A DNA stretch of 28,057 nucleotides, taken from Bacteroidales bacterium UBA3824 (GTDB taxonomy: Bacteria > Bacteroidota > Bacteroidia > Bacteroidales > UBA3824). A model generated the notes under the pieces. That model made no database searches. It was not told the DNA's origin and saw only the letters and a program-made list of their open reading frames with translations. Numbering within the stretch: the stretch's first letter is position 1; each line of letters starts with the position of its first letter. Of this stretch, positions 1,656 to 10,327 are shown piece after piece. Position numbers and translations under genes: made by a program. The stretch is from contig DGIK01000067.1 of NCBI GenBank assembly GCA_002393195.1, positions 1-28,057 on the forward strand, given 5' to 3'.

Positions 1656-2990
1656 CTATTCATTATAATCGCTGAAATTGTACTCGCCGATTGCGATGTC
1701 GGAGAGTTTTTTCAGGGGAAGGTTTTTGAGTGTTTCTGCCGATTCGTAATCATAGTCGCCGCCCGCCGCAGGATATTTGGTGTGTTTTTCAAGGTCAAAC
1801 TCGCCACCGTAGCACTGCGGCCAACCGTGCACGCCATCTATATCTATGCCTGTAAACGTGATGCCGCCTATCAGGTAAAAGTCGCCGTCTTGAAAACGTA
1901 GATGGTAACTACGTTTAAACTCGTTGGTGGTTTCTTCGGCCTCTTCATTGTATGATGTATAAATCCACCACTCACCATTGTCCCAAATATTAACACCTAC
2001 ATCGTGGAGAGTCTTGTAAGACTTGAAAAGCGTGTATCCGTCGTCGCCGCCCCAATAAACAGCCAACTTGCCGCCGTGTTTTTCGGCAGCCACCAAGTCG
2101 CTTTTGCCGTCGCCGTTGATGTCATTTTCGGCTATCGAAAGGCTATCTTTGTTGCCGCTGTAAAGTTCGGCGATTGTCTTGCCTGACTGTGCAAACTCGC
2201 CGCCTTTGTTCGTCACGCCAAACACTTTCAAGTCTTGCTCCAACGGCTTGAACTCGGGGTCGCGGACAAACTTTTCGCCGTCCCAAATGTAATAGGCGGA
2301 GGGATAAGTCCAAGATTCATTGTTGTCAACGAGCGGAATCAACGACTTTGCCAAAATCCTGTCCTCGCCGTCCCATTTAACAACCTCAGCCTTCGCCAAA
2401 AGTTTGCCGTCTTCTGTCACAGAATACCAAACTGTGCTTGCAATCGCCTTTTTCAGGTCGTTGTAAGTATCTTTTGGGAAATCAGCGGCATTGGCGTAAA
2501 AATCGTCGATGCCGGGCTTGGGCAACAGATTGTTGATTTTGGTGATTGTGCCGTCTTTGTATGAAAACAATTTGTATTCCTTAGATGACGCCATACCGCA
2601 ATAGTCGCACACCAAGTCCAAAATCACGACCACAGCGCATCCGTCGTCTTTGTACGGGAAACAGTGTACATCGATGCCCATATCCCACGGACGGAAATTA
2701 AAGATATGTTCGGGTTTGCATTCTTCAAGTTTCTTCAAGTCGTTCATCGAGAATCCAGCAAGATCTTTCTCCGCCAATTTTTCGGCTACTTCAATTACGA
2801 TGGGTTTGGCGTCGGATGCGGGTTGGGTTGCCACAGTATCAGATGTAGAGACGTTGCGTGCAACGTCTCTACCAGTGGCGGCAGTGGTGTCGGCAGATGT
2901 ACCGGCATTTTGATTTGTCGTACCGCCGCCGCATGATGCCAACAATGTCAGCGCGGCGAAGGCGGCGATGATTGAAAGTGTCTTTTTCAT
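1656..2990 (-). CDS. Secreted lipoprotein with an EF-hand-like calcium loop, function unknown
   Basis: The protein is 444 residues if it starts at 2990, where MKKTLSIIAAFAALTLLASC gives a clean lipoprotein signal with the lipidated Cys at residue 20. An in-frame ATG at 3068 would put 26 residues in front of the signal peptide and lies upstream of the promoter, so I reject it. A Thr/Ala/Ser-rich linker (residues 22-62) follows. Residues 289-298 (NDINGDGKSD) form a DxNxDG loop as in FG-GAP/VCBS or dockerin calcium sites, and much of the rest is rich in aromatic and acidic residues. I do not recognise a named family. It lies between trpB and trpE but has its own promoter and no evident link to tryptophan. 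Residues 40-49 are encoded by a 28-base palindromic repeat. Confidence 0.85.
   Translation of the reverse strand: MKKTLSIIAAFAALTLLASCGGGTTNQNAGTSADTTAATGRDVARNVSTSDTVATQPASDAKPIVIEVAEKLAEKDLAGFSMNDLKKLEECKPEHIFNFRPWDMGIDVHCFPYKDDGCAVVVILDLVCDYCGMASSKEYKLFSYKDGTITKINNLLPKPGIDDFYANAADFPKDTYNDLKKAIASTVWYSVTEDGKLLAKAEVVKWDGEDRILAKSLIPLVDNNESWTYPSAYYIWDGEKFVRDPEFKPLEQDLKVFGVTNKGGEFAQSGKTIAELYSGNKDSLSIAENDINGDGKSDLVAAEKHGGKLAVYWGGDDGYTLFKSYKTLHDVGVNIWDNGEWWIYTSYNEEAEETTNEFKRSYHLRFQDGDFYLIGGITFTGIDIDGVHGWPQCYGGEFDLEKHTKYPAAGGDYDYESAETLKNLPLKKLSDIAIGEYNFSDYNE
2845..2872. repeat. 28-bp perfect palindromic repeat inside the lipoprotein gene
   Basis: Arms GTAGAGACGTTGC and GCAACGTCTCTAC (13 bp each) surround a 2-base centre. 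It lies in frame in the low-complexity linker just after the lipobox and is translated as part of GRDVARNVST. The arm resembles dispersed GTAGAGACG-type palindromes I recall from Bacteroidetes and cyanobacteria, so it may be a mobile MITE- or REP-like unit captured by a coding region. Confidence 0.8.
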
Positions 2991-3098: not shown

Positions 3099-3137
3099 AC
3101 CGTCCAAATCTAAAGTTGAACTTTAGATTTGGACGGT
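3099..3137. terminator. 39-base perfect palindrome between trpB and the lipoprotein gene
   Basis: Arms of 19 bp, starting A plus CCGTCCAAATCTAAAGTT, surround a single central base. It lies 30 bases after the trpB stop codon and before the lipoprotein promoter, where it can fold into a very stable hairpin and probably ends trpB transcription. It has no long U-run, so it may instead be a dispersed palindromic repeat. Confidence 0.7.
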
Positions 3138-3166: not shown

Positions 3167-4354
3167 TTACAACTTAAAATAATTGGCGTAAGTATTCATA
3201 TCCTTGTCGCCGCGACCAGAAACGGTGATTACCACTGTCTCGTCCTTGCCGAAGGTGAGTTTTGGCAACATTGCCAATGCGTGCGCGCTCTCGATGGCGG
3301 GGATGATGCCTTCGAGTTTGGTGAGTTCGAGAGCCGCCGTCATTGCCTCCGCGTCGGTGATTGCAAGCACCTTGGTGCGACCAACTTTGGCGAGATGGGC
3401 GTGCATTGGACCTACGCCGGGATAGTCGAGACCCGCCGAAATGCTGTAAGGCTCGGTAATCTGACCGTCCTCGTCCATCATCACGAGCGAGCGGCTGCCG
3501 TGAAGGATGCCTTCTCGTCCGAGGTGGATTGTCGCCGCCGATTTTTCGGGGTCTTCAAGTCCAAGACCGGCTGCCTCGGCTGCGTAGAGGCGCACTTTTT
3601 CGTTCTCAATATAATGATAGAACGTGCCAGCCGCGTTGCTGCCGCCGCCGATGCAAGCAAGGAGATGGTCGGGATAGTCGCGACCAGTCTGTGAGAGGAG
3701 TTGCTTCTTGATTTCCTCGCTTATGACGCTCTGAAACCTCGCCACCATGTCGGGGTACGGGTCGGGACCAACCACAGAACCTATTATATAATGCGTGTTG
3801 GCGGGGTTACAACACCAATCGCGTATAGCCTCGTTAGTGCCGTCTTTGAGGGTGCGGTTGCCGGACATCACGGGAACCACCGTTGCGCCAAGCATCTTCA
3901 TCCTCTGAACGTTGAGGAATTGACGCTTGACGTCCGTCTCGCCCATATAGACCACGCACTCCATATTCATCAATGCGCATACCGTAGCCGTTGCCACGCC
4001 GTGCTGACCCGCACCGGTCTCCGCCACGATGCGAGTCTTGCCGAGACGACGCGCAAGGAGTATCTGACCGAGGGCGTTGTTGAGTTTGTGCGCACCCGTG
4101 TGACAAAGGTCTTCACGTTTGAGATAGATGTTTGCGCCATACTTTTCGCTAAGGCGATTGGCGTGGTAGAGCGCGGTAGGGCGCCCCACATAGTCATGAA
4201 GAAGTTGATTGAACTCCGCCTGAAACTGAGGGTCGCCCATGATTTTCAGGTAGTTTTCTTTGAGTTCCACAACGTTTTTGCGGAGGATTTCGGGGACGTA
4301 TGCGCCGCCAAACTCTCCATAATAACCGTTTTCGTTGATTGAGTATTTGCTCAT
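3167..4354 (-). CDS. trpB: Tryptophan synthase beta chain
   Basis: TrpB joins indole with serine to give tryptophan in a PLP-dependent reaction, normally as an alpha2-beta2 complex with TrpA. The 395-residue length is normal for the TrpB1 class. The N-terminus [26 protein letters not shown] with the PLP lysine K90, AETGAGQHG with the catalytic E112, the phosphate-binding GGGSNAAG (236-243) and the C-terminal VSGRGDKD are all present. It appears alone here, with its own promoter and Trp attenuator, and is separated from trpE by a lipoprotein gene. In many Bacteroidetes trpB directly precedes trpE in one operon, so the arrangement suggests a later split. Confidence 0.97.
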
Positions 4355-4390
4355 TTTATGTTGGTTTTTTAATTAGTTGCTACATCAAAA

Positions 4391-4423
4391 AAAGGTCTGA
4401 CGTGAGTTTTACGTCAGACCTTT
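4391..4423 (-). terminator. trpB attenuator terminator hairpin
   Basis: A perfect 10-bp stem, GGTCTGACGT (4394-4403) with ACGTCAGACC (4411-4420), has a 7-base loop and is followed on the minus strand by a T run. It closely resembles the trpE attenuator in stem sequence. AACTCACG in its 5' half (minus strand) can pair with the antiterminator arm at 4455-4463. Confidence 0.9.
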
Positions 4424-4454
4424 CTATATTGTATTCATACATACAAGGCGATTC

Positions 4455-4463
4455 AACTCACGG
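4455..4463 (-). promoter_or_regulatory. trpB attenuator antiterminator arm
   Basis: Minus-strand CCGTGAGTT begins 4 bases after the leader stop codon and complements AACTCACG inside the terminator 5' arm and loop. A ribosome at the leader stop would cover it. Confidence 0.75.
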
Positions 4464-4467
4464 ATTT

Positions 4468-4524
4468 TTACATTCGCAAGCGCCACCACCAATTGTTATA
4501 TGCCATTGTCGCAATCATTGTCAT
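4468..4524 (-). CDS. trpL: trp leader peptide upstream of trpB, three consecutive Trp codons
   Basis: An 18-codon ORF reads MTMIATMAYNNWWWRLRM and then TAA. From the internal ATG (4506) 32 bases are identical to the trpE leader, covering MAYNNWWWRLR. The same order follows: leader stop, antiterminator arm, terminator, structural gene. The start codon abuts the stop codon of the HEPN stump (TAAATG). Three starts are possible (4524, 4518, 4506); the last is the one shared with the trpE leader. Confidence 0.9.
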   Translation of the reverse strand: MTMIATMAYNNWWWRLRM

Positions 4525-4647
4525 TTAAACTTTTGTCGCCGCAAAGTTGGGAAGAAATTTTTTAATTTGCAAATTTTTTTTGAGATTTTTTGCCTTTTCC
4601 ATCTCCAATTCTACAATCGTGATGCGCTCTTCGTCATTCAAACTCAT
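4525..4647 (-). pseudogene. Truncated HEPN-domain protein, only the first ~20 codons kept
   Basis: The ATG overlaps the MNT stop codon (ATGA), typical translational coupling in MNT-HEPN pairs. The product would be 40 residues. MSLNDEERITIVELEMEKA matches the N-terminal pattern of HEPN (UPF0332-like) proteins, which begin with DEER/xLVxLRxEKA. After that the sequence turns into Lys/Asn-rich low complexity (KNLKKNLQIKK) and ends at 4525. The usual 120-135 residues with the Rx4-6H RNase motif are absent, so no toxin can be made. The trpB promoter (4542-4573) lies within the degenerate part, so the original 3' end was probably lost when the trp leader region joined here. Homology is judged by eye from about 20 residues. 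Confidence 0.6.
4542..4573 (-). promoter_or_regulatory. Promoter of the trpB transcript, inside the HEPN stump
   Basis: Minus strand: TTTG (4570-4573), a 20-base spacer, then CAACTTTG (4542-4549), one base from TAnnTTTG. It has the same geometry as the trpE promoter. The start would fall a few bases before the leader peptide ATG. Confidence 0.6.
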
Positions 4648-4958
4648 TTCAATACGATTTTATCTTGTTCCACATTATGATAAAACGGCAAAAAAGTCCA
4701 ACTTTGCCACTGTTTTTTTGTATAAACGTGCGTACTGATGTACTGCCCGATGTCCAACCCATAATCATAAAACGGGTAAGTCATATCGTAATCCGCACTT
4801 GTAATACGTTCTTTGTCGAGCAACACCAACAAATCCCAATCGCTGTCGGGACGATAATCCCCACGCGCCCGCGACCCATACAGATACAGGCTACTGTCTT
4901 GTGGCAAAATCTCCGCCGCAAGAGTCCGCAAATGCTGTATTACTTCCGATTGTTCCAT
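4644..4958 (-). CDS. MNT-type nucleotidyltransferase (antitoxin half of an MNT-HEPN pair)
   Basis: The protein has 104 residues from ATG 4958; an upstream in-frame ATG at 4991 would add 11 unlikely residues. The minimal nucleotidyltransferase signature GSx10DxD is complete: G28-S29 in LYGSRARGD, then D40 and D42 in DSDWDLLV. The length is typical of stand-alone MNT proteins, which in characterised pairs neutralise a HEPN ribonuclease by adding AMP near its active site. The overlapping downstream gene is a broken HEPN stump, so this MNT has no visible partner. It could persist as a solitary antitoxin against a HEPN protein elsewhere, or be decaying. It sits next to the CRISPR array, forming a small defence-like islet. 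Confidence 0.88.
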   Translation of the reverse strand: MEQSEVIQHLRTLAAEILPQDSSLYLYGSRARGDYRPDSDWDLLVLLDKERITSADYDMTYPFYDYGLDIGQYISTHVYTKKQWQSWTFLPFYHNVEQDKIVLK

Positions 4959-5030
4959 ATTGCAAAAAATATCTACGGCAAAATTAAACAAAATATTGAA
5001 TCTAAGAAAGAAAAAATTTCACCATCCAAA

Positions 5031-5071: not shown

Positions 5072-5326
5072 ACACAAATCCTTGTTCTAATGGAATATGC
5101 TCTCTGACTGTTATTAGTATTGTCTGTCGCAGTCTTGAAATGTAACACAAATCCTTGTTCTAATGGAATATGCTCTCTGACTCAACTTACAAATTACGTA
5201 AGTGATGCGGTTGTTCACACAAATCCTTGTTCTAATGGAATATGCTCTCTGACAATTAATAACCATCTGTGCCATGATGATTAAACCCTACACAAATCCT
5301 TGTTCTAATGGAATATGCTCTCTGAC
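5072..5326. CRISPR. Orphan CRISPR mini-array, 4 repeats and 3 spacers
   Basis: Four identical 37-base repeats start with ACACAAATCCTTG and end with ATATGCTCTCTGAC, at 5072-5108, 5145-5181, 5217-5253 and 5290-5326. The three spacers are 36, 35 and 36 bases (5109-5144, 5182-5216, 5254-5289) and do not resemble one another. There is no degenerate end repeat and no cas gene within the window. The repeat lacks a strong internal palindrome, and its ends do not have the GTTG...CAAC form seen in many type II and VI-B repeats, so I do not assign a type. The AT-rich stretch on the right (5360-5650) is the more likely leader side, which would mean transcription on the minus strand; this is inference. 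Confidence 0.93.
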
Positions 5327-7918: not shown

Positions 7919-10327
7919 ATGAAACAGACAACAAACCAGAAGACACTCCTTGTCGCCGCGCTCGCGCTCACAGCCTCGGCTGCCGCAAACGCCCAGTGCA
8001 TCAGCGGCAACTGTTATGATGGCTACGGGGTATATCAAGAAGAGAGATACCGATACACCGGCTTCTTCGACAACGGCAACCCCAACGGACATGGCGTACT
8101 ATATTATAACAGTGGCAACATCTACTCAGGCGAGTTCAAAGATGGCAAACGCAATGGTCAAGGCACCTACTACTTTGCGGAAGACGGTATGCGTTACATC
8201 GGCTTTTTCAAGGATGGCGTAATGCACGGCCCCATCGACGAAATCCCTCCATCAGGCAAGCCACACCACGACGTGTACAAGGAAAACGAACTCATAGAAC
8301 CAGAACCCACCAAAGGTACTGTGTATGGCAACAGCAAAAATGGCTACAACGTAACACTCTATGAAGACGGCTCGCGCTATGTGGGCATGAACCGCGACAA
8401 CAAACACAACGGATGGGGCACTATCACAAAAGATGATGGCTCTATCTACACCGGCGAATTTTTGGACAACAAGTTCAACGGCTACGGAACTCTCACAAGC
8501 CCCGACGGAACCATCACAGAAGGCATGTGGGAAGACGACCGTTTTGTCGGCGAACTCAAAAACCAGACCGGCTGCGTGAGCGGCGACTGCAAAAACTCCT
8601 ACAGCGTCCTCGTCAAAAACGGCGAAAAATACATCGGCGAGTTCAAAAACGGTCTCCCGCACGGCATGGGCAGATACATACTCGCCGACGGCAGCAGCTA
8701 CGTAGGCAGCGTCGTAGCAGGCAAAATAGACGGCTACGGCACTCTCAAATACGCAGCATCCGAAGATCCCAAAGCACCAAAAAAATACGTGGGCGACATC
8801 CGAAACGGCAAGCCAAACGGATACGGAGCTTTGTTCTACAATAACGACGACTTCTACTACGGACACTTTGTCAACAACGTATTTGACGGGCAAGGTGTCT
8901 ATGTAGAACAATCGACCCTCAAAAGGAAGTCGGGCTTATATTACAAAGGCGAACTCGTAAAAGAAATGCCGGAACAAGACTTCGACCTCATCTTCGGCGA
9001 CAAAAACGGATACGGACTGCGACTCACCGAAGGCGGACGCTATACGGGCAACCTCATGAACGGCACACCAGAAGGTCAAGGTACTCTCGAATCATACGAC
9101 GGATTGTCGATATTCTGCGACTTTGAAGACGGACTCGCCAATGGCCATGGAATGTGCGAAAATAGCAACAACGGCACAAAATACATCGGACAAATCCGCG
9201 ACAACAAGATAAGCGGCAAGGGCTTGATGTACTATCCCAACGGAACCAAAGAAAAGGGAACTTTTAGAGACGGCGTCCTTACGCAGGAAACCGCCATGTC
9301 TGCCAACATCCAGAAGCCGGACGTAGGCTGGAACGCTCCTCTGCAATACAACACCAACGTAACGGAAGGCTCATATACCGTAAAACTTTGTGTAAGTTCC
9401 TCATCGCCAATAGAAGAAGTATCCCTCTACCTCAACAACAAACCCGTTGTCAACAAGAACGTAACCGGTGCCAAGAAAGCGAACGACCCCTTATGCGACT
9501 ACACATACGAGTACAAAATACAACTCGAGCCAGGACGCAACGAAATCATGGCGGCTGTGAAAAACGCCGGCGGCACCACAAAAACCGACACCCGATACAT
9601 TTCGTGGGTATCCTCTGACGCCATCAGCAAACAAAAACGCGTAGCCCTCGTCATAGGCAACGGCGCATACACCAACATCTCGCCGCTCAAAAACCCAACC
9701 AACGATGCCAAACTTATGGCAAAAGAACTCAGAGCCCTTGGTTTTGAAGTAATTGAACGCACCGACATCACCCGCGACGAGATGAAAGAAGCCGTATATA
9801 ATTTTGGCGACCGACTCAGGGAAACAAAGGCAGTGGGACTCTTCTTCTACGCCGGACACGGCATACAGGTGGACGGCATCAACTATCTCGTGCCTGTAAA
9901 CGCCTCTCTTGCCAAAAGGGATGAGGTAGAGAATGTTTGTTTCAGCATCAACAAGGTGATAGGTCAATTGGCATACGCACAAAACGACCTCAATATCATC
10001 ATCCTCGATGCCTGCCGTAACGATCCATTCGCTGCTACAGGCAGAGGCGGTCTTGCACAATTCGACGCTCCCAAAGGCACTATGATTGCCTACTCCACCG
10101 CTCCTGGCAAAACAGCAGCCGACGGCGACGGCGCAAACGGTCTCTACACCGAACAACTCGCAAAGGCCATCAAAAATCCTGAATACAAAATGGAGGACGT
10201 CTTCAAACAAGTACGCGCAGAGGTATATCGAATCTCCCACGAAGCAGTCCTGAACGGCACAATGCCAGAAGAACAAATTCCCTGGGAAAACTCCTCAGTA
10301 TTCGGCGACTTCTACTTTGTAAGGTAA
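7919..10327 (+). CDS. Secreted MORN-repeat protein with C-terminal caspase-like (C14) protease
   Basis: The 802-residue protein has a signal peptide (ANAQ, cleavage near residue 25). Residues 35-455 are MORN-type repeats (YxGxFxxGxxxGxGxxxxxxG), interrupted near 105-135 and 205-230. A beta-sandwich-like module (about 475-565) leads to a peptidase C14 domain (572-800) with both catalytic residues: His647 in FFYAGHGIQ and Cys699 in ILDACRNDPF. A C-x-S-G-x-C motif occurs twice, at 27-32 and 219-224, each opening a MORN block, which points to internal duplication and possible disulfides. Caspase-like domains with these motifs are typical of bacterial metacaspase/orthocaspase relatives. The substrate is unknown; MORN repeats may bind lipid or envelope partners. 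It has its own promoter and a strong terminator at 10360-10405. Confidence 0.93.
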   Translation: MKQTTNQKTLLVAALALTASAAANAQCISGNCYDGYGVYQEERYRYTGFFDNGNPNGHGVLYYNSGNIYSGEFKDGKRNGQGTYYFAEDGMRYIGFFKDGVMHGPIDEIPPSGKPHHDVYKENELIEPEPTKGTVYGNSKNGYNVTLYEDGSRYVGMNRDNKHNGWGTITKDDGSIYTGEFLDNKFNGYGTLTSPDGTITEGMWEDDRFVGELKNQTGCVSGDCKNSYSVLVKNGEKYIGEFKNGLPHGMGRYILADGSSYVGSVVAGKIDGYGTLKYAASEDPKAPKKYVGDIRNGKPNGYGALFYNNDDFYYGHFVNNVFDGQGVYVEQSTLKRKSGLYYKGELVKEMPEQDFDLIFGDKNGYGLRLTEGGRYTGNLMNGTPEGQGTLESYDGLSIFCDFEDGLANGHGMCENSNNGTKYIGQIRDNKISGKGLMYYPNGTKEKGTFRDGVLTQETAMSANIQKPDVGWNAPLQYNTNVTEGSYTVKLCVSSSSPIEEVSLYLNNKPVVNKNVTGAKKANDPLCDYTYEYKIQLEPGRNEIMAAVKNAGGTTKTDTRYISWVSSDAISKQKRVALVIGNGAYTNISPLKNPTNDAKLMAKELRALGFEVIERTDITRDEMKEAVYNFGDRLRETKAVGLFFYAGHGIQVDGINYLVPVNASLAKRDEVENVCFSINKVIGQLAYAQNDLNIIILDACRNDPFAATGRGGLAQFDAPKGTMIAYSTAPGKTAADGDGANGLYTEQLAKAIKNPEYKMEDVFKQVRAEVYRISHEAVLNGTMPEEQIPWENSSVFGDFYFVR

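Follow-up and report, generated by a model that had tools for sequence, protein, structure and literature searches.

Two predicted tryptophan attenuators on the parted trp operon of an uncultured Bacteroidales genus

Operon fission is usually thought to cost co-regulation. The window analyzed here, a 28,057-nucleotide stretch from Bacteroidales bacterium UBA3824, raises the question of how two parted pieces of one tryptophan pathway each came to carry a leader of the attenuator type, and what this could mean for their control. On the minus strand of the window, trpB and trpE are separated by a lipoprotein gene, as the preliminary description of this DNA had reported, and each trp gene is preceded by a leader of its own (Table 1). 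The window cuts trpE at the contig end; the gene continues on contig C192 (24-nt exact overlap) and is followed there by trpG-D-C-F-A. The genus consists of uncultured gut bacteria, of which 18 genomes were surveyed: the window's own genome, labeled G000, and 17 relatives. Other G numbers denote relatives, and L numbers denote the loci that were read.

Table 1. Positions of trp genes, leader elements, and neighboring features in the window
Feature	Position	Strand	Remarks
trpB	3167-4354	minus	395 aa; 97-99% identical in G002, G008, and G011
trpE	2-1357	minus	cut by contig end
Lipoprotein gene (cargo)	1656-2990	minus	FG-GAP_3 match slightly below cut-off; called lipoprotein from the appearance of its N-terminus
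Perfect palindrome, 39 nt, 19-nt arms	3099-3137	minus	3' of trpB; possible terminator or small repeat
trpB leader, whole	4542-4573 to 4387-4423	minus	promoter-like element to terminator
trpB leader, promoter-like element	4542-4573	minus	TTTG, 20-nt spacer, CAACTTTG; Bacteroidetes -33/-7 type
trpB leader peptide	4468-4524	minus	MTMIATMAYNNWWWRLRM, then stop; three consecutive UGG at 4483-4491; start codon provisional
trpB attenuator, segment 1	4475-4482	minus	CGCUUGCG, Arg-Leu-Arg codons; pairs with segment 2 in the consensus
trpB attenuator, segment 2	4456-4462	minus	CGUGAGU; predicted antiterminator strand
trpB attenuator, segment 3	4401-4407	minus	ACUCACG; terminator loop and 3' arm; complements segment 2
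trpB leader, intrinsic terminator	4387-4423	minus	-20.6 kcal/mol, then T-run
trpE leader, whole	1598 to 1401	minus	
trpE leader, promoter-like element	1567-1598	minus	TTTG, 20-nt spacer, TTTCTTTG
trpE leader peptide	1483-1542	minus	MKNLMAYNNWWWRLRNQKS, then stop; UGG codons at 1507-1515
trpE attenuator, segment 1	1499-1506	minus	
trpE attenuator, segment 2	1481-1487	minus	
trpE leader, intrinsic terminator	1401-1436	minus	-19.9 kcal/mol, T-run; segment 3 at 1414-1420
Inverted repeat	2845-2872		GTAGAGACG...CGTCTCTAC, within the lipoprotein gene
Small nucleotidyltransferase gene	4644-4991	minus	NTP_transf_2; directly upstream of the trpB leader
Exact 36-bp repeats, n = 4	5073-5326		spacers differ; CRISPR-like by repeat pattern alone
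Protein with MORN repeats and caspase domain	7919-10327		PF00656; both in one protein

Two homologous leaders

Both leaders contain a short ORF with three in-frame UGG codons directly upstream of a trp gene, together with an intrinsic terminator between this ORF and the first structural gene. The promoter-like elements have the same spacing (TTTG-N20-8-mer), as originally noted, and a Bacteroidetes promoter consensus, TAnnTTTG, is quoted in the accessible part of PMC6414381. Aligned base by base from the promoter to beyond the terminator, the trpB and trpE leaders reached a local score of 149, whereas none of 300 dinucleotide shuffles exceeded 35; their transcribed parts alone scored 111, with no value above 31 in 500 shuffles. 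This alignment bears out the earlier claim that trpB has a complete attenuator copy of its own, homologous to that of trpE. The longest exact match is the 32-nt stretch ATGGCATATAACAATTGGTGGTGGCGCTTGCG, found at 4475-4506 and 1499-1530 and coding for MAYNNWWWRLR, exactly the identity first pointed out. Leaders homologous to that of trpB occur in G002, G008, and G011. The stop codon of the trpE leader peptide falls within segment 2; that of the trpB leader is shifted and begins 9 nt before GTGAG.

Leaders before Bacteroidetes trp genes, a position that both window copies share, are represented by the Bacteroid-trp RNA (Rfam RF01692), listed in a table by Weinberg et al. 2010 (PMC2864571, accessible part). 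A Trp-codon peptide, a helix between segments 1 and 2 (1:2), and a terminator arm are likewise common to the window leaders and this RNA. In contrast to it, the window copies score below the family cut-off, and one genome has two of them, on two pieces of the pathway. Against a gathering score of 49 bits, which neither copy reached, the trpE leader obtained 45.7 bits (E 0.015) in the scan of the window, and the trpB leader 30.7 bits (E 0.3), not significant alone, in the scan of its own genome. A scan of relatives covering five loci with seven leaders yielded one match, the G002 trpE leader at 51.7 bits, which passes the cut-off and is the orthologue of the window's trpE copy. Because only this one of the seven leaders was matched, the model covers this group poorly. 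Given their scores below the cut-off, the window copies are named here Bacteroid-trp-like attenuators rather than curated members of the family.

Predicted switching and its traces in the alignment

We propose that the trpB and trpE leaders would work as ribosome-mediated tryptophan transcription attenuators. When tryptophan is short, a ribosome would stall at UGG-UGG-UGG and mask segment 1, the Arg-Leu-Arg codons; segment 2 (CGUGAGU) would then pair with segment 3 (ACUCACG), no terminator would form, and the genes would be transcribed. When tryptophan is plentiful, the ribosome would reach the stop codon and mask segment 2, so that the terminator could form, and in RNA that is not translated segments 1 and 2 would pair with each other, again with formation of the terminator. 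The leaders may accordingly be read as a switch that turns the trp genes down under ample tryptophan, with both the ribosome stalling and the tryptophan response deduced from sequence. The E. coli trpL attenuator follows a four-segment logic with stalling at Trp codons, and the same logic is predicted for the window leaders. Three features differ from trpL: the trpE leader peptide has its stop codon within segment 2, the codons that immediately follow the Trp codons make up segment 1, and only about 7 nt of segment 2 are conserved.

An RNAalifold consensus of 24 leaders, 21 from the genus and three from outgroups, contained both the terminator and the 1:2 helix, the latter formed by CGCUUGCG (Arg-Leu-Arg codons) paired with CGUGAG. 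In 10 of the 21 consensus pairs, at least one sequence had changed on both sides with pairing kept, a count blurred at the top pairs by the terminator loop of four trpE leaders (G004, G009, G013, G016), which is out of register in alignment A1. The GTGAG of segment 2 was present in all 35 distinct leaders, a set preselected for the loop motif CTCAC, since the leader finder kept only leaders whose ORF contains TGGTGG and whose terminator contains CTCAC, and dropped all others before these counts were made. 'RLR' is probably conserved because its codons pair with the antiterminator strand.

Folding of partial RNAs reproduced the alternatives of the proposed switch. RNA lacking segment 1, as if masked by a ribosome stalled at the last UGG, and extending no further than segment 3 gave the antiterminator between segments 2 and 3 (2:3) in nine of the nine leaders folded. 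RNA freed 15 nt past the start of the stop codon gave the terminator in nine of nine, including G001, whose segment 2 this set-up leaves just exposed without preventing the terminator. The complete RNA folded into the terminator in every set-up, even when freed as by a stalled ribosome; the antiterminator would therefore have to act by forming first, as it does in the classic attenuation model. Mutually exclusive 1:2, 2:3, and 3:4 pairings were thus obtained in silico, the 2:3 pairing only in RNA ending before the full terminator. Covariation in the 2:3 antiterminator amounted to a change from U-A to A-U in four leaders of related genomes and from C-G to U-A in one, and its score was equaled in 68 of 2000 re-pairings of the two sides, a weak signal because most positions never vary.

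Leader number follows operon layout

A covariance model of the leader was combined with gene positions across the 18 genomes of the genus and returned 23 matches of at least 94.8 bits, the next match standing at 40 bits. Since each of the 23 either is a row of the model or has the same sequence as one, the result lies in their count and not in their score. The layout trpBEGDCFA with one leader was found on one contig in G001 and G003 and across contig ends in G015, and the layout trpEGDBCFA with one leader on one contig in G004, G005, and G009 and across contig ends in G012 and G017; G014 shares the latter order on a contig that starts inside trpE and bears no leader. The split layout trpB / trpEGDCFA with two leaders is that of G000 and G002. 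G011 also has trpB split off and two leaders, both on one contig (L121), which ends 15 nt after the second terminator, so that the assignment of the second leader to trpE is our inference; trpE-G-D and part of trpC lie on another contig of this genome, in which trpF and trpA were not seen. Three pieces, trpB / trpEGD / trpCFA, with three leaders occur in G013 and G016, the latter having all three on one contig with trpCFA in the opposite direction. For G008, only the trpB part with one leader is available, the trpE piece being unassembled, and G006 and G007, with one leader each, have assemblies too broken to class.

The preliminary description had proposed that a single leader in unsplit relatives, with extra leaders only in split ones, would speak for duplication. 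Such a pattern emerged: unsplit operons had exactly one leader in eight of eight genomes (five on a single contig, three across contig ends), and split operons had one leader per piece, namely two in 3/3 genomes with trpB / trpEGDC(FA) and three in 2/2 with trpB / trpEGD / trpCFA, although these counts are not independent events, as the genomes are related and are metagenome assemblies. In the outgroup loci L006-L011, a leader precedes trpB, and none of like build was found before trpE; in L009 and L010, trpE is preceded by a small WW-containing frame that lacks a strong terminator.

Seventeen weaker matches in the genus were rejected as further attenuator copies: 11 lay antisense over leader terminators, and the six elsewhere, when read, each ended in a hairpin, none being a leader of the attenuator kind (in one, the Trp codons belong to the end of a 241-aa ORF). 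G010, 94% complete, had no trpE or trpC match, a TrpB match of only 36%, and no leader, and is probably unable to make tryptophan by the trp route. Between trpD and trpC lies a gap of about 288 nt in the window's genome (L148:1625-1911), about 290 nt in G002, and 205 nt in G011, compared with 0-11 nt in G001, G003, and G015, which likewise have the two genes side by side; no leader was found in this gap of the window's genome.

Across the order, strict filters gave matches in 98 of 393 Bacteroidales genomes, 94 of them outside the genus, and laxer searches (E 0.01, E 0.001) then covered these 94, the 295 genomes without a match being judged by the strict filters. Two leaders were found and read in three of the 94; most matches in the other 91 were counted by the model, whose weakest hits may be nothing more than a terminator (G277). 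One of the three, G255, belongs to another family and has a trpEG / trpDC split with a leader on each piece (L238:3449-3577 and L228:819-945), its relatives G047 and G160 having one leader each; this genome is 65% complete and has a TrpB-like match of only 34%. The other two, G214 (L242:8427-8684) and G023 (L244:3153-3424), from two families other than the window's, have a pair of complete trp attenuators upstream of trpE, arranged in tandem and not separated by any gene. Two leaders without an intervening gene had been named beforehand as the case that would argue for independent origin; the case exists, in these distant genomes and only as tandems before trpE. The G214 pair scored 67 against at most 31 when shuffled, and its first copy scored 31-49 against the three other leaders tested; the copies, alike above chance and closer to each other than the first is to those three, point to tandem duplication. 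The G023 pair, at 25 against at most 29 when shuffled, showed no likeness above chance. Tandem leaders may provide double-stringency control and may also represent an intermediate for copying.

Second matches in G369 (C8), G104, G242, G076 (C1), G274, and G277 (C226) were read and found not to be leaders; those antisense over a first match were set aside, and a 30-bit match in G369 (C7) lies outside this reading. In G058, an attenuator-like leader at L247:6345-6475, MQFIRFNNNWWWRNFRDKQWS followed by a stop, precedes a 454-aa PALP-family protein; the protein is 31-35% identical to TrpB, and no closer TrpB was found in that genome.

Origin of the second leader and the genes in the gap

Taken together, these observations are best explained by two Trp attenuators that go back to a split of the operon in an ancestor, with one copy per half and variable cargo added later, a reading in which we place considerable confidence. 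In the ancestor of the window's clade, the trp operon would have parted between trpB and trpE; each half would have been left with, or have acquired, its own homologous copy of promoter and attenuator, and unrelated accessory genes would have settled between the halves, in a set differing by species. This order of events is our reconstruction. We propose that both halves would stay under tryptophan control, since each has its own attenuator copy.

In a tree of the leaders, the trpB leaders of the window's clade are grouped (100/99), as are its trpE leaders (98/97), and the window's trpB and trpE leaders are not placed as sisters; the two separate, supported groups imply that the doubling is older than these species. 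The 32-nt identity, which might be taken as a sign of recent duplication, was rejected as such, for in its 35-nt core the window's trpE leader matches the trpE leaders of G012 and G017 at 32 positions, exactly as many as it shares with the window's own trpB leader. The identity is better regarded as a conserved core that would be held by RNA and codon constraint and does not necessarily reflect recent copying; near-identical leader cores are easily misread in this respect. Outside the core, the likeness of the window's pair is 72% for the promoter part and 73% for the part that follows the Trp codons. The promoter parts of trpB-trpE leader pairs in the window's clade are 70-76% alike, close to the highest values for unlike leaders; this does not hold for these pairs after the Trp codons, where the window's pair is mid-range, so that the evidence on local copying is mixed. 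Of the original proposal that the control region was duplicated when the operon broke, the homologous second copy tied to fission stands, and the use of the 32 bases to date the copying to the break does not.

Single-leader lineages stand between the window's clade and the G013 lineage in a tree of PriA, comprising 15 genomes of the genus (G003 and G015 partial; G016 and G017 outside the set searched; G006 with a weak match only). The split therefore arose at least twice or was undone several times. Although their gene orders differ, G003, G005, G012, G015, and G017 have a nearly identical TrpE; in the pairs compared, 15-18% of its four-fold sites differ, as against 27-54% in PriA for the pairs with PriA. 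Exchange of trp genes within the genus is thus likely and confuses this history.

Such exchange offers an alternative for the source of the copy only, and it is compatible with both attenuators working. One leader, the trpE leader (or the trpB leader), may have been imported with trp genes from a trpE-first relative, which would make the window's arrangement a recombinant of trpB-first and trpE-first operons. Single-leader operons of both orders do occur in the genus, the trpE core is as close to the G012 and G017 leaders as to its neighbor before trpB, and the conflict of the gene trees with PriA suggests an exchange of this kind. However, the window's clade has trpE leaders that group by themselves, its TrpE is the outgroup to the genus's other TrpE with no donor visible, and the promoter parts of its trpB and trpE leaders are, as a rule, slightly closer to each other than those of its trpB leaders are to leaders of other lineages; we therefore consider import a serious alternative that is nonetheless somewhat improbable. 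That the second leader lacks function, whether as a relic or as an artefact of assembly, is very improbable, even though the genome is a metagenome assembly with a contamination of 6.4% and the stop codon of the trpB leader is shifted. The same layout recurs in two further species, with both leaders on a single contig in G011; the trpB copies keep all their elements in genomes in which 17-33% of the four-fold sites of trpB differ from those in the window; and the shifted stop is still near enough to GTGAG for a terminating ribosome to be expected to cover it. Convergence of two independent leaders on Trp-rich peptides and terminators is scarcely conceivable given the 32-nt exact match, the identical promoter spacing, and a score far above shuffles, although likeness beyond the core is only about 60-80% for most of the genus's non-orthologous leaders.

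Two attenuators in one genome have a counterpart in Corynebacterium diphtheriae, for which the accessible part of PMC1262725 gives candidate trp attenuators before trpB1EDGC and trpB2A, one for each trp operon. That species belongs to another phylum and has trpB itself doubled, whereas the window's genus has single trp genes, parted into as many as three pieces, and also contains unsplit operons with which these can be compared. Split trp operons, with the pathway in two or more sub-operons, are common in marine bacteria and are described as gene orders, the word 'leader' being absent from the accessible part of that source (PMC2395257). Titles and the beginnings of abstracts in the openly licensed literature contained no report of an attenuator on each trp piece in Bacteroidetes. 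The attenuator kind is ordinary and known; one copy per operon piece is an arrangement that appears new for Bacteroidales. As unsplit, two-piece, and three-piece layouts exist in one genus with attenuators tracking the pieces, the cost of fission and its remedy become directly testable.

More tentatively, an attenuator copied along may make the trp pieces (B, EGD, CFA) self-sufficient regulated modules that accessory genes could part and that could be inverted and rejoined in a new order, fission then being a route to gene-order change without loss of control. The trpEGD-B-CFA order of six genomes of the genus is joined exactly at the module borders where G013 and G016 are broken. If this speculative view were true, operon gene order could change by fission with copied attenuators while regulation is kept.

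The gap itself does not bear out the suggestion that insertion of the lipoprotein gene broke the operon, a cause rejected here because G002 and G011, which share the two-leader layout, carry other cargo at the same spot. Between the halves, G002 carries a Tsp45I-type restriction enzyme and a DNA methylase (on two contigs overlapping by 55 nt), and trpB of G008 runs into the same sequence that precedes this restriction-modification pair; in G011, the gap is occupied by genes for a zinc-ribbon protein and an unknown protein, by a weak match to AbiEi, and by a gene of AbiEii type. The cargo must therefore have arrived after the split or changed since. Among the genomes read, only G000 has the lipoprotein at this site, and all its relatives in the genus are on contigs that carry neither trpB nor trpE. 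Over long stretches, the two best of these show 43-44% identity, and short N-terminal stretches reach up to 63%. With its variable cargo, the trpB-trpE gap marks a place next to trp genes in which restriction-modification, AbiE-type, and lipoprotein genes come to lie. A parallel is the accessory protease gene that adjoins the trp operon of Flavobacterium psychrophilum and is co-transcribed with it, according to the accessible part of PMC6414381. An inverted repeat similar to the one within the lipoprotein gene, GTGGAGACGCG...CGCGTCTCTAC, lies directly after trpB in G002, G008, and G011.
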